Positions 50,838 to 56,301 of a stretch of DNA of 64,000 nt are shown here, in pieces. A program made the translations under genes and the position numbers. The stretch comes from Hymenobacter taeanensis (GTDB lineage Bacteria > Bacteroidota > Bacteroidia > Cytophagales > Hymenobacteraceae). The stretch spans positions 2,449,001 through 2,513,000 of the forward strand of contig NZ_CP053538.1 of the NCBI RefSeq assembly GCF_013137895.1, written 5' to 3'. Positions within the stretch are counted from its first letter, which is position 1; the number at the start of each line of letters is the position of its first letter. The notes under the pieces were generated by a model. That model did no database searches, was not told the DNA's origin, and was given only the letters and a program-made list of their open reading frames with translations.

Positions 50838-53800
50838 TTAGTAGCCGAAAATCTCTTTCAGCGTGAGTTGTTCAACTTGGCCATACTTGGCCAGTTCCTT
50901 GAAATTGAGACGGTCTTTAGAGCCAATAACCAAGATGGTCTGGTTCTGGCCCTTCACTTTCGCCTGCTGAAACTTCTGCAGATCGGAGAAGCTCATGTTC
51001 TGGGTCTTCTCATACACGTCGCGGCGCACGTCGTAATCGAGGCCCAAGCGCTTGGCCCGCTCGTAGTTGAATAGCACATCCGACTTGGTGATGCGCTCCG
51101 TGGCAATGCTGTTGCGGATGGCATTCTTGGCAATCTGCAGGTTGGCCTCAGCCACGGGCATATCGTTCAACAGGGCTTCCATGCCGGCCATGGCCTCGGG
51201 CAGCTTGTCGCTCTGGGTGCCAATGTAGCTGAGGTTGTAGCTGCTGCGGCCCAGCTTGTCGGCATTGGCGTAGCGCGAAGATGCGGAGTAGGCCAGGGCC
51301 TTCGACTCGCGCAGCTCCTGGAACACAATGCTGCCCATGCTGCCCCCGAAGTACTCGTTGTACAGGCTCACCGTCGGTACAATGTTCTTATCGTAGATAT
51401 CACCCTTGGTCAGGAACAGGATTTCCGCCTGTACCATGTTGTAATCCACCCAATAAACCTTGCGCGAGTTCATGGGTTGCTCCGCGAAGTCCTTGTTAGC
51501 CGGAACTGGCTTGAGCGTGGCGGGAGTTTTATGTAGTTGATCAAGAACAGAAACTAAGCCCCGTTTCGGGCCACTAGACGTAATTGGCTGCTTAACTACG
51601 TTAGTTTCTTTACCCGTCATAGGGTCTTTTTCCTTGACAGGAAGCTCATTTGCCTCAACAACCCAACGTGGTCCGTAGTACAGCACGCGGTGCTGGTAGG
51701 TCGGAATCTGCTTGATGAGCGAAGTCAGTTGCTCGGGCTTCAGGGCCTTTAGCTCTTTCTCGCTAAGGCGGCTAGTGAAGGGGTTCTTCGAGCCATACTT
51801 CGCGTAGTTCAGCATGGCCTGATTCAGAATCACGCCCTTGTTCAGCTTCGCATCCTGGCGCGACTTCAATTCACCGGCCACCATGTTCTGTAGGGCGGCA
51901 GCGTCGGGCTTGGGTGCGTTCAGCAGGCTCTCGAATAACTGCAAAGCCGGCTCAAAGTTGCTGTCTAGGCCACTCAGGCTCACGAAAATTCGGTCCTGCC
52001 CGCTGCTCACAGCAAACGAGCAACCCAACTTGTAGAACTCTTGCTGCAGCTGCTCGGCGCTGTACTTGCCGGTACCCAGGTACTGCAGGTAGTCGGCGGC
52101 CAGGCCCAGGCGCGGGTCGTTGTTCGTGCCCATATCGAGCACGTAATACAGGTTGAACAGGTTATTCTCGGCATTGCGGGTGTAGAACACCGGCACGCCC
52201 GAGGCCAATTTGGTTTCCTGAATATCCTTCTTGTAATCAAGGAACACGGGCTGCAGCTCCGGCGAGGTCATGCTGGTAACCTGCTTGTAGAAGTCGGAGG
52301 CCACCTCGCGGTTCACGGGTACCGGCGTAATGGCCGGCTTCACCACTTTCACCTTGTTGGGGTCTTGGCCGGTGCGCTTGTACACGGCCACGTAGCTAGG
52401 GCCGTAGTATTGGTTGGCTACGCGTACCACTTCCTCTTTCGTGATGGTCGCGAAATCGTCGAACTGTTTCAGGTAGTCTTTCCAATCTTCGCGGGCCACG
52501 AAGGCCTCTACGAACGCGCCGGCGCGGGCCTCATTGCTCTCGTAGCTCTTGGTGCGCTGCAGCTGTTCGTTGTTGATGATGGCCGGAATCAGCCACTCCG
52601 GGAAGTCGCCCTTCTTCACCTTCTCCAACTGGCCTAGCAGCAGGTCGCGTACTTGCTCCAGCTTTTGACCCTGGCGCGGCGTGGCGTACAAAATATGCGA
52701 GGAGTAGTCGTTGTTGATGTCGGTGAAGGAAGCGGCACTTAGCACCACCTGCTTCTGATTTAGGTTCAGGTCGATGAGGCCGGCCTGGCCGTTGGTCAGG
52801 ATCTTGTCCAGCATGCGCAATACCAGCGCGTCGCGGGTTGCCACGCCGGGAAAGCGGTAGCCCAGCATCACGTTCTCCGCATCGGGACCAATTACTTCCT
52901 TTACAATGGGCGCGGTGATGGGCGCTTCCTTGGCGGGTGTGTAGGCCGGTACCGGCTTGCTTTGCAGCTTGCCAAAGTACTGGTCAATGATGCGGATGGT
53001 CTGGTCGTAATCCAGGTCGCCGGAGAGGCACAGTGCTACGTTGTTGGGCACGTAATACTGCCCGAAGTACTTCTTGATTTCCGTGATGGACGGGTTCTGC
53101 AGGTGCTCAATCGTCCCGATGGTGGTCTGCGTACCGTACTCGTGCTTTTGGTAGAGGTTACGGTTGAGCATCTCCAGCTCCTTGCGGAAGTCGCTGTCGA
53201 GGCCCCGGTTTTTCTCTTCGTACACGGCCTCCAGCTCCGTATGGAACAGGCGCGGCACCATCTCGCCCAGCCGCTCGCTCTGAATCGCGGCCCACTTTTC
53301 AATTTGGTTGCTCGGAATGTCCTCCTGATACACCGTCTGCTCCACCGAGGTGTAGGCATTGGAGCCTTTAGCGCCAATGGCCCCCATCACCTTGTCGTAC
53401 TCATTGGCCACCGCGTACTTGGCCGCCACACTCGACACGGAGTCAATCTGGTGGTACAGCTTTTTGCGATTGGCTGGGTCCGTTTGGGCGCGGTACTGCT
53501 CGTAAAGCGCTTCAATCTTGTCGAGCTCTACTTTCTCCGCAGCCCAGTTCTGGGTGCCCAGGCGAGAGGTACCTTTGAACACCATGTGCTCCAGGTAGTG
53601 CGCCAGACCAGTGGCGTTGTGTGGGTCGTTCTTCGAGCCCGCGCGCACCGCCATATAGGTCTGAATGCGAGGGGCATCGTCGTAGTCAGAGAGGTAAACG
53701 GTCAGGCCGTTATCCAGGGTGTAAATGCGCGCTTTCAGCGGGTCGCCTTCTACGGTCTGGTACGTATATTCCTTTGGCGCAGTGGCCGCTGGGCTGGCCG

Positions 53801-53900
53801 GAACCGAGGAAGTGGTAGTAACTGCGGGCTTGCTGGTCTGGCACTGGGTAAGGCTAAGCGCCGCGATGGCTGGGAGGAAAAGAAGGAAGGATTTTTTCAC
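50838..53900 (-). CDS. M16 family zinc metallopeptidase, lipoprotein
   Basis: 1020 residues with a GTG start. It is a lipoprotein by its lipobox: signal followed by SLTQC with Cys20. The M16 N-terminal unit carries HYLEH (101-105, His-x-x-Glu-His metal site) and the distal Glu in EAVYEEKN; a second, inactive-type M16 unit fills the C-terminal half, as in pitrilysins. It lies in the periplasm or outer membrane and degrades peptides. It is monocistronic, with a TATCTTTG promoter upstream. Confidence 0.9.
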   Translation of the reverse strand: MKKSFLLFLPAIAALSLTQCQTSKPAVTTTSSVPASPAATAPKEYTYQTVEGDPLKARIYTLDNGLTVYLSDYDDAPRIQTYMAVRAGSKNDPHNATGLAHYLEHMVFKGTSRLGTQNWAAEKVELDKIEALYEQYRAQTDPANRKKLYHQIDSVSSVAAKYAVANEYDKVMGAIGAKGSNAYTSVEQTVYQEDIPSNQIEKWAAIQSERLGEMVPRLFHTELEAVYEEKNRGLDSDFRKELEMLNRNLYQKHEYGTQTTIGTIEHLQNPSITEIKKYFGQYYVPNNVALCLSGDLDYDQTIRIIDQYFGKLQSKPVPAYTPAKEAPITAPIVKEVIGPDAENVMLGYRFPGVATRDALVLRMLDKILTNGQAGLIDLNLNQKQVVLSAASFTDINNDYSSHILYATPRQGQKLEQVRDLLLGQLEKVKKGDFPEWLIPAIINNEQLQRTKSYESNEARAGAFVEAFVAREDWKDYLKQFDDFATITKEEVVRVANQYYGPSYVAVYKRTGQDPNKVKVVKPAITPVPVNREVASDFYKQVTSMTSPELQPVFLDYKKDIQETKLASGVPVFYTRNAENNLFNLYYVLDMGTNNDPRLGLAADYLQYLGTGKYSAEQLQQEFYKLGCSFAVSSGQDRIFVSLSGLDSNFEPALQLFESLLNAPKPDAAALQNMVAGELKSRQDAKLNKGVILNQAMLNYAKYGSKNPFTSRLSEKELKALKPEQLTSLIKQIPTYQHRVLYYGPRWVVEANELPVKEKDPMTGKETNVVKQPITSSGPKRGLVSVLDQLHKTPATLKPVPANKDFAEQPMNSRKVYWVDYNMVQAEILFLTKGDIYDKNIVPTVSLYNEYFGGSMGSIVFQELRESKALAYSASSRYANADKLGRSSYNLSYIGTQSDKLPEAMAGMEALLNDMPVAEANLQIAKNAIRNSIATERITKSDVLFNYERAKRLGLDYDVRRDVYEKTQNMSFSDLQKFQQAKVKGQNQTILVIGSKDRLNFKELAKYGQVEQLTLKEIFGY

Positions 53901-54058: not shown

Positions 54059-54090
54059 AAAGGACTGCTTCTGTGCGGAAGCAGTCCTTT
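54059..54090. terminator. dnaX terminator
   Basis: AAAGGACTGCTTC pairs with GAAGCAGTCCTTT with a 6-base loop and an A-rich flank, 39 bases beyond the dnaX stop on the minus strand. Confidence 0.88.
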
Positions 54091-54129: not shown

Positions 54130-56301
54130 CTAAAAATCGGCATCCAGTCCCAAGCGCTGCTTCATCTCAGAGAGCATGGGATATTTCTCCATCAGGTATT
54201 CCAGCTTATCGGTGGAAGTGTAGAGCTTACGGCCGGTATCTACCTGCTCGCTTATTTCTACCTGCACGTTGAGACGCGGGTAACCGGTGCGGCGGCGCAG
54301 CTCACCTAGGAAGCCCGCCCGAAACTCATTGAACTGGTCTTCCTGCACAGGATTGTCCACACGAAGCAGGATAACATGCTGCTCATTGGCGCGCACCGGG
54401 CGGTTGAGCACGCTGTATTCACTCATGCTGTTTTGCTTGCGTTCCTCCAGTAGCTCAGCCCACACCCGTTGTAACACCTCATCATTGATAGGGGCCAGGC
54501 CAGTTGTGGGGCCAGTTGGCTCGGTGTCAACCAAGGCAGCCTTGCCGGCGGCCTGCTGCTCCATCTGAGCTTTTAGGGCGTTGAGACTGCCGAGGCCCGG
54601 GATTTTGCTGCCTAGGCCTATGGGCTTTCCCGTGGGCAGGCCGGGGCGGGGCGGCGGCAGGGGCGCGGCCGTAACCGGGGTCTGGCCGGGCTCATGACCA
54701 GCTACGCTGGGCTGCCCAATTTCTACGTGGGGCACCGTATCGCGCAGTTTTTGGGTAGTGGGAGGGGCAGTAGCCGCTTCGTTCTCAATACTGGGCGTGC
54801 TATGCAGTTCTTCCACGCCGCTTTCCACGGGCACAATGGGCTCGGGGTCGGCGGGAGCGTGGGCGAGTGGCCTGGCGGGTTCAGGCGTTGGGCTGGCAGG
54901 TGTGGCCGGGCTGGCCGTTCCGCTGCCGTTCGCAGAGGCATAGGGCGCGGCCATTTCGGCGGTGCCATTAGTGCTCAGCAAGCCGTCCGGGGCGGGAGCG
55001 GCCGCCGGCGCTACGCTACTTTTTTTTTTCGCCTCGCCGTTGCTGGCTGAGGCGGGTTGGGCGTTGGCCGAGGGGCCGGCACCCATGTCGCGGGCGAATT
55101 GCACGGCGCCGTTCAGGTAGGCCAGTTTCATCAGCATCAGCTCCACGTGGAGGCGCTGGTTTTTGGCCTGCTTAAACTCCCGGTCGCACTGGCTTACCAG
55201 ATTCAGGGCCGACAGCAGGAAGGCCAGCGGCGCGGCCTGGGCCTGCTGCACATAGCGCGCCCGAATGTTATCGGACACCTCCAGCAGCTGCACCGTCACG
55301 GGGTCTTTGCACACCAGCAGGCCACGCAAATGCTCGGCAGCACCCACCACAAAATTATGCAGGTCGAAGCCATTCTGCACTACCTCTTCCAGCAGCAGTA
55401 GAGTCTGCGACAGGTTCTCCGTCAGCAGCGCGTCAACCAGCCGGAAGTAGTACTCATAATCCAGAATATGCAGGTTCTGGACTACGTCCTTATAGCGCAA
55501 ATCATGCCCCGAGAAGGTCACCATCTGGTCGAACATGCTCAGGGCGTCGCGTAGGCCACCGTCGGCCTTTTGGGCCAGCAGGTGCAGGGCGTCGTCCTCA
55601 GCTTTTATGTGTTCCTGGGTAGCCACGTAGCGCAGGTGCCCCCGAATGTCATCTACCCGAATCCGGTTGAAGTCGAAGATCTGGCAGCGCGAGAGGATGG
55701 TGGGGATAATCTTGTGCCGCTCAGTGGTGGCCAGAATGAAGATGGCGTAGCTTGGCGGCTCTTCCAGCGTTTTGAGGAAGGCGTTGAAGGCCGCATTCGA
55801 GAGCATGTGCACCTCATCAATGATGTACACCTTGAAGCGGCCCTGCTGCGGAGCGTAGCGCACCTGCTCCACCAAACTGCGGATGTCCTCCACGGAGTTG
55901 TTGGAAGCCGCATCCAGCTCGTGCACGTTGAACGAGGCGTTTTCCTGGAAGGCCCGGCAGGAGCTGCATTTGCCGCAAGCCTCCAGCTCGAAGGGCGTAT
56001 TATCCGGGTCTGGGGCCTGTTGCAGCACCTCCGGTACAATATCAGGCTGCACCTGCAGCAGCTCTGAAACCGGCCGACCTTTCCGCACATGCTCCTCTAC
56101 AAACTCGCAGTTGATGGTCTTGGCCAGAATACGCGCACAGGTGGTTTTGCCCACCCCGCGCGGACCACAAAACAGAAATGCCTGCGCCAGATGCTGGCTA
56201 GCAATAGCGTTCTGCAACGTGGTGGTAACGTGCTGCTGCCCAACTACGCTGCGAAACGTAGCGGGACGGTATTTCCGGGCCGAAACAACGAAATTCTCCA
56301 T
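54130..56301 (-). CDS. dnaX: DNA polymerase III gamma/tau subunit
   Basis: 723 residues. Clamp-loader ATPase: GPRGVGKTT Walker A at 46-54, a zinc site of Cys64 and CGKCSSC (109, 112, 115) with a ~35-residue insertion compared with E. coli, IIDEVHML Walker B, and SRCQIF sensor. Residues 1-420 form domains I-III, and 430-723 the tau-specific part with Ala/Pro-rich linker and C-terminal domain. At codons 425-428 there is a run of ten A; a shift in either direction terminates immediately, giving a product of about 428 residues, the size of E. coli gamma (431). That shorter form is inferred. It is one of the most interesting genes here. Confidence 0.95.
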   Translation of the reverse strand: MENFVVSARKYRPATFRSVVGQQHVTTTLQNAIASQHLAQAFLFCGPRGVGKTTCARILAKTINCEFVEEHVRKGRPVSELLQVQPDIVPEVLQQAPDPDNTPFELEACGKCSSCRAFQENASFNVHELDAASNNSVEDIRSLVEQVRYAPQQGRFKVYIIDEVHMLSNAAFNAFLKTLEEPPSYAIFILATTERHKIIPTILSRCQIFDFNRIRVDDIRGHLRYVATQEHIKAEDDALHLLAQKADGGLRDALSMFDQMVTFSGHDLRYKDVVQNLHILDYEYYFRLVDALLTENLSQTLLLLEEVVQNGFDLHNFVVGAAEHLRGLLVCKDPVTVQLLEVSDNIRARYVQQAQAAPLAFLLSALNLVSQCDREFKQAKNQRLHVELMLMKLAYLNGAVQFARDMGAGPSANAQPASASNGEAKKKSSVAPAAAPAPDGLLSTNGTAEMAAPYASANGSGTASPATPASPTPEPARPLAHAPADPEPIVPVESGVEELHSTPSIENEAATAPPTTQKLRDTVPHVEIGQPSVAGHEPGQTPVTAAPLPPPRPGLPTGKPIGLGSKIPGLGSLNALKAQMEQQAAGKAALVDTEPTGPTTGLAPINDEVLQRVWAELLEERKQNSMSEYSVLNRPVRANEQHVILLRVDNPVQEDQFNEFRAGFLGELRRRTGYPRLNVQVEISEQVDTGRKLYTSTDKLEYLMEKYPMLSEMKQRLGLDADF
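55020..55029 (-). promoter_or_regulatory. A10 slippage/frameshift site in dnaX
   Basis: Minus-strand codons GCG AAA AAA AAA AGT contain ten A. Adding one A (or a -1 frameshift) gives AAA AAG then TAG; losing one A gives GTA GCG TAG. Both frames stop within a few codons, just after domain III. Thermus thermophilus dnaX makes gamma by slippage on a nine-A run and E. coli by a -1 shift on A-AAA-AAG, so the same function is likely. Confidence 0.75.

Follow-up and report, generated by a model that had tools for sequence, protein, structure and literature searches.

A conserved run of ten A's in dnaX of Hymenobacter and other Bacteroidia, a probable transcriptional slippage site for the gamma subunit

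The dnaX gene of Hymenobacter taeanensis carries a run of ten A's, with stops in both other frames close behind it. This raises the question of whether the gene yields a short gamma product in addition to tau and, if so, by which kind of slip. The window considered here is the whole analysed stretch of DNA, 64,000 nucleotides in length. Its dnaX frame is identified by NCBIfam PRK14971 and TIGR02397, both above cut-off, by Pfam DNA_pol3_gamma3 at residues 273-397 and by a PDB sequence match to E. coli gamma/tau, whose best stretch comprises residues 107-392. The relevant features, with the basis for each, are the following:

54130..56301, minus strand: dnaX, 723 codons, the full frame being tau, 79.3 kDa computed (ORF, profile and PDB matches)
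55081..56301, minus strand: folded N-terminal part, residues 1-407 (ATPase, lid and domain III), in both predicted products (AlphaFold2, Pfam)
55020..55029, minus strand: putative slippery A10 run, codons 425-428 (AAA AAA AAA A/GT) (T10 on the plus strand; genus conservation)
55016..55018, minus strand: TAG, stop of the A11 or -1 frame, 1 nt past the run (frame readout)
55011..55013, minus strand: TAG, stop of the A9 or +1 frame, 6 nt past the run (frame readout)
54502..55077, minus strand: low-confidence, probably disordered linker holding the run, residues 409-600 (AlphaFold2)
54151..54483, minus strand: folded C-terminal domain, residues 607-717, absent from the predicted short product (AlphaFold2)

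Across the run the frame reads GCG AAA AAA AAA AGT AGC GTA GCG; the run begins at codon 425 in phase 0, lies 59% through the gene and is directly followed on its 3' side by GTAGCGTAG. An uninterrupted run of at least nine A's within a single tau frame after domain III is present in this gene. The initial annotation, made from the letters alone, had placed the run at codons 425-428, just behind domain III, and both statements are borne out, the placement being kept in all 118 genomes of the genus that were examined. With near stops at 1 and 6 nt in the two non-tau frames, an A11 transcript or a -1 shift would give 428 amino acids and an A9 transcript 429. The same annotation had predicted a product of about 428 residues from a slip in either direction, which agrees with these values; its length for gamma stands, and the computed mass of the 428-residue product is 48.0 kDa, where it gave ~47 kDa. 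The gamma of E. coli has about 430 residues. Beside the gene, a perfect 13-bp inverted repeat (AAAGGACTGCTTC/GAAGCAGTCCTTT, 6-nt loop) occupies window positions 54059-54090, in the gap that separates dnaX from the minus-strand ORF after it (50838-53900). It looks like a terminator by eye; the terminator scan reported a different site, at 53964-53946, and not this one.

What a slip would do to the protein was considered with an AlphaFold2 model built on a 30-sequence alignment (mean pLDDT 70, pTM 0.49). The model is confident to about residue 407, with 10-residue pLDDT means of 77-93 over residues 21-400, and pLDDT falls below 50 over residues 409-572 and 582-600. The corresponding means for the C-terminal domain are 78-90 over residues 601-680, 63-64 over 681-700 and 77-79 over 701-720. 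Since the run lies near the start of the probably disordered linker, a slip would, according to the model, remove the linker together with the C-terminal domain. It would leave in place the clamp-loader portion, which has its match in solved structures of E. coli gamma.

We consider it likely that the A10 run serves as a site of programmed transcriptional slippage from which gamma arises, in the manner of Thermus. RNA polymerase would copy the run into mRNAs with 10, 9, 11, 12 or other numbers of A's. Transcripts with 10 ± 3n A's would be translated into tau (723 aa), with its linker and C-terminal domain, and the remaining ones would meet a stop right behind the run and give a gamma of 427-430 residues, that is, domains I-III without the C-terminal domain. 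We infer that the slip takes place during transcription and that the clamp loader uses both proteins, which, as in Thermus thermophilus, a single gene would supply.

Could the run have arisen by chance? The count in the window is by itself not surprising: four A8 words occur against 1.5 ± 1.7 expected, and 14 of 100 shuffles reach four. The whole genome (4.88 Mb) holds 16 distinct A/T runs of at least nine, two of them of length 10, and the second length-10 run is situated upstream of the first ATG in its open frame. The genus gives a different kind of evidence. Of 120 Hymenobacter genomes searched, 118 had a dnaX readable across the site, the other two (G096 and G100) being without a full dnaX match. 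The run is A10 in 106 of these genes, A11 in eight, A9 in three and A8 in one, and each of the 118 templated dnaX frames contains one A/T run of at least eight, and one alone. Between residue 405 and the run lie 21 to 147 nt, so that the run moves within a fast-changing linker, yet every one of the 118 retains it. The linker sequence on its flanks diverges while the run, its placement and the double stops stay. The initial annotation had named, as one of the findings that would count against it, a run missing from relatives that conserve the flanking protein; the opposite was found, in 118/118 genus genes and in most of the relatives sampled in the class. It is conservation, and not the count in the window, that argues against a chance origin of the run.

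The stops are kept as well. Both non-tau frames end within 27 nt of it in 118/118 genus genes, and one of the two within 4 nt, whereas in the genus linkers at large both frames stop within 30 nt at 4.5% of other positions (n=9,440). Within the 104 intact A10 genes of the genus, the TAG of the A11/-1 frame stands at 1 nt in 93, and the stop of the A9/+1 frame lies 6-27 nt past the run in all 104; the usual pattern is TAG at 1 nt and TAA, TAG or TGA at 6 or 9 nt. Five genomes reach the double stop through quite different codons (GCCCTGATGCAG). Because of their shared ancestry, the 118 genomes are not 118 independent tests, and it is the varied ways of reaching the double stop that argue for selection. 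Taken comparatively, the conserved run and stops support the earlier interpretation of the run as a slippage site, at which the slip itself is deduced from sequence.

Two readings that give the run little or no part in making gamma have to be set against these data. One, which we hold to be very improbable, is that the run has no programmed role and is a lysine patch or a mutable tract for phase variation. Lys-Lys-Lys is indeed conserved in the genus, and the run length changes by one base at the tips of the tree; nevertheless, A10 is kept in 106 of the 118 genus genes, and neither a lysine patch nor phase variation gives a reason for the double stops. Elsewhere in 108 genus genes lysine is encoded more often by AAG than by AAA (944 vs 660 codons before the run, 716 vs 316 after it), and across the class the phase of the run, hence the encoded residues, differs. 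The other is that tau is proteolysed and that most of any gamma arises in this way, the run doing no more than tuning it; proteolysis is the route given for Caulobacter in PMC5009743. The position of the run inside a linker that AlphaFold2 predicts to be disordered is in keeping with cleavage, but proteolysis leaves the conserved run and stops unexplained, and we regard this as scarcely credible.

The outlook widens beyond the genus. In the wider sets a run was scored when A8 or more occurred in the interval from 60 nt before the end of domain III to 330 nt beyond it, and all runs found in the five sets were A9-A13. The run was present in 17 of the 19 genomes that belong to the family but neither to Hymenobacter nor to the genus designated g3, and in 29 of 30 of the order-and-class sample. 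The class sample comprised 60 loci from 56 families, mostly one per family; 58 were usable, of which 44 had the run and 14 lacked it. In a set of named Bacteroidia, taken from the best 80 of 594 stretches and overlapping the genus set by three Hymenobacter genomes, and perhaps other sets too, 64 of 78 usable loci had the run and 14 did not. Other classes of the phylum had it in 12 of 30 and lacked it in 18. Its absence from part of the class, named and other-class loci indicates that gamma by this route is not universal. Of the 166 run-bearing genes in these five sets, 158 have a stop in each non-tau frame no more than 30 nt away, against a background of 5-21%; the eight without one near stop at this limit are L019, L049, L052, L072, L268, L276, L308 and L347. 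All three codon phases of the run occur in the class (for example GAA AAA AAA AAG or TCA AAA AAA AAA), with 9, 37 and 18 genes of the named set in phases 0, 1 and 2. This variation implies that the nucleotides are kept, and not the residues.

Which of the two products is templated also varies. Tau is templated at the run in 110/118 genus genes; L129 and L185 belong to these 110, and their frames break further on. In the other eight, with an A8, A9 or A11 run, gamma is templated and tau needs a slip, three of them requiring one A more and five one A fewer. In the five wider sets 117 genes are tau-first, 45 need one A more for tau, including L057 on a short contig, of which we are unsure, and four need one fewer (L060, L278, L356 and L376). 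On a FastTree tree of N-terminal DNA of the genus the templated state changes eight times, and each of the eight slip-dependent genes has a nearest relative with A10. Their C-terminal part remains open for 285-314 codons in seven of the eight, with dN/dS of 0.11-0.20 against a relative (seven intact control pairs gave 0.09-0.22); L193 and L198 were compared with L135 because the nearer L185 is frame-broken. The eighth, L139 (A8), carries damage further along (182 open codons, dN/dS 0.37) and counts for little. As the eight flips are recent events at the tips, these values say only that the C-terminal part has not decayed, and not that the state is long-lived. Some of the A8, A9 and A11 flips may be assembly errors. 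As for L129 and L185, their A10 is intact and their templated frames end near residues 576 and 551; a C6 stretch stands just ahead of the break in L129, perhaps an assembly error.

The main rival to transcriptional slippage is slippage of the ribosome: gamma would be made as in E. coli, by -1 frameshifting on the run (A_AAA_AAA), the longer slippery stretch being kept because it slips well. Runs of A are slippery for ribosomes too, and a -1 shift here would give the same gamma, meeting the TAG at 1 nt both in the window and in those 93 of 104 intact A10 genes. Among templated-gamma genes outside the genus set, most (45 vs 4) require an additional A, which amounts to a -1 shift; this also favours the ribosomal explanation, and so does an upstream GAGG within 8 nt of the run in 110/118 genus genes and 5/5 of g5. 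That GAGG is found in none of seven g4 genes and in two of five of g6, however, any Shine-Dalgarno-like 4-mer occurs upstream in 23/75 of the class sample, and the spacing between GAGG and run is unlike that of the E. coli stimulator. Around the same place, AACGGCGAGGC(G/T) at window positions 55030-55041, immediately ahead of the run, hardly varies within the genus, a GAG codon being present there in 108 of 116 phase-0 genus rows; it is kept in g5 and not in g4 and most of g6.

Although the predicted gamma resembles that of E. coli in its roughly 430 residues and its early -1-frame stop, the site differs from the E. coli one in three respects. The in-frame heptamer A_AAA_AAG is absent from the window gene, where the frame AAA AAA AAA AGT leaves A_AAA_AAA alone available. 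No downstream structure was seen in the genus, the mean fold z being -0.16 in 35 of 104 genes under a scoring without pseudoknots; third-position conservation downstream of the run is 0.67 in the first 9 nt and 0.39 thereafter. Finally, the +1 frame is stopped nearby as well, so that the second non-tau frame is closed in 118/118 genus genes. In addition, a single -1 shift is no rescue for the A11-templated genes L143, L146, L195 and L199. Stops in both other frames, together with slip-dependent genes of either direction, fit slippage in the transcript better than a one-way ribosomal shift, which we consider unlikely for the A10 run.

Within the same family, g3 shows the features usual for a ribosomal shift, which speaks for this rival. 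All 50 g3 genomes that were drawn were used (L237, L240, L243, L245, L250, L251, L253, L254, L256, L258, L259 and L380-L418). Their dnaX has no A10; an A7 takes its place, or A6 in the gamma-first L259, and it is followed, with small variations, by GCTAA-GGTAG...GGCACC...CTACC...GGTGCC. Interleaved stems of 5 and 6 pairs (GGTAG/CTACC and GGCACC/GGTGCC), a potential pseudoknot, are possible in 50/50, with one pair lost in two. The stems show three wobble changes and zero two-sided changes that keep a pair; since the region is nearly invariant (mean third-codon-position conservation over 48 nt of 0.82, vs 0.44 in Hymenobacter), informative changes are few, and the pseudoknot is strongly suggested and not proven. 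The fold is somewhat more stable than that of shuffles (mean z -1.32 in 25 of 50 genomes). These features mark a candidate -1 ribosomal frameshift site in g3. In a quick tree of 53 proteins g3 forms one clade (support 98), and the branch that connects it with the remaining genera, g2 excepted, has weak support (15). A10 versus A6/7 requires two changes on this tree, in which the seven order relatives used have A10 or A11; two separate losses of the run, or one loss and a regain, would both be compatible with it. Slippage of the polymerase has apparently been swapped for ribosomal frameshifting in g3.

Other relatives without the long run present sequences of several kinds at this place. The g2 loci L246 and L249 come from the same family and have a gamma-first dnaX in which a G follows A6 (L246) or A7 (L249); both then have GATGCCGGTAGCGTAAAACCTGCCGGC, a possible hairpin, and a -1 frame open for 225-240 codons, into which a -1 shift would lead to give tau. 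L048, L064 and L073 (Bacteroidales or Bacteroidetes MAGs) have no A run and an in-frame TAG at about codon 401, in the conserved context TAG ATTGC(A/T)AGG, beyond which the frame is open for 189-254 codons. Stop readthrough for tau is possible in these three, judging from the open frame; a strict search for the TAG-readthrough pattern returned 0 of 395 class genomes. At the corresponding position L027, L046, L077 and L326, which also have no A run, read GGG C(G/A)T AGC, and a slip into the -1 frame on these G's would run straight into TAG; L079 and L377 are similar without that stop.

The mechanism favoured here, transcriptional slippage, is already known for dnaX. Thermus thermophilus uses it on nine A's, according to PMC1088944 and PMC5009743. 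The Hymenobacter gene is like that of Thermus in having a long sense-strand A run in a single tau frame, both other frames stopped nearby and a shorter gamma; it differs in having A10 in place of A9, in belonging to another phylum and in being known here from its sequence. The run also lies 59% through the gene, vs seven-eighths in Thermus according to PMC1088944. For E. coli, PMC5009743 describes -1 ribosomal frameshifting to an early stop in the -1 frame as the source of gamma, and for the reversed case, tau made by frameshifting, it names one candidate, in Chlorobium. Two-ORF dnaX genes with poly-A at the junction were published in 2013 (PMC3711429): ten A's are found in 9 of 17 genes, three more from Chloroherpeton and Chlorobium have nine, eight and seven, and the authors suggested transcriptional slippage. 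A ten-A dnaX that needs a slip for tau was thus on record. In those two-ORF genes tau needs the slip, whereas in the window and in 110/118 genus genes it is gamma that does; the two-ORF architecture is not that of the window gene, with its one open frame of 723 codons, and its gamma-templated counterpart occurs in eight of the 118. No report of dnaX slippage in Hymenobacter was found in the literature covered by our search, which did not extend to the species list of PMC3711429. New here are the breadth across the class, the flipping of frames and the apparent swap of mechanism.

These elements can be joined into a class-wide reading, to which we give about even chances. The slip site in dnaX of Bacteroidota would be an old device of the class, in which the nucleotide run is selected, and not the protein. 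If both products are made in any case, which one is templated would hardly matter, and the gene would flip between tau-first and gamma-first with each one-base change in run length. Polymerase slippage would have given way to ribosomal frameshifting at an A7 ahead of a pseudoknot in one genus of the family or more, and there may be UAG readthrough in a few Bacteroidales.

The importance of the short gamma is disputed, with considerable controversy for E. coli according to PMC5009743. In about three quarters of the sampled families of the class the site is present and its stops are kept while the protein is free to change, and a truncated DnaX is therefore probably selected there. The family offers a natural comparison between apparent polymerase slippage and apparent ribosomal frameshifting leading to the same product, and it carries a warning for annotation, namely that split-looking dnaX genes in these genomes need not be pseudogenes.
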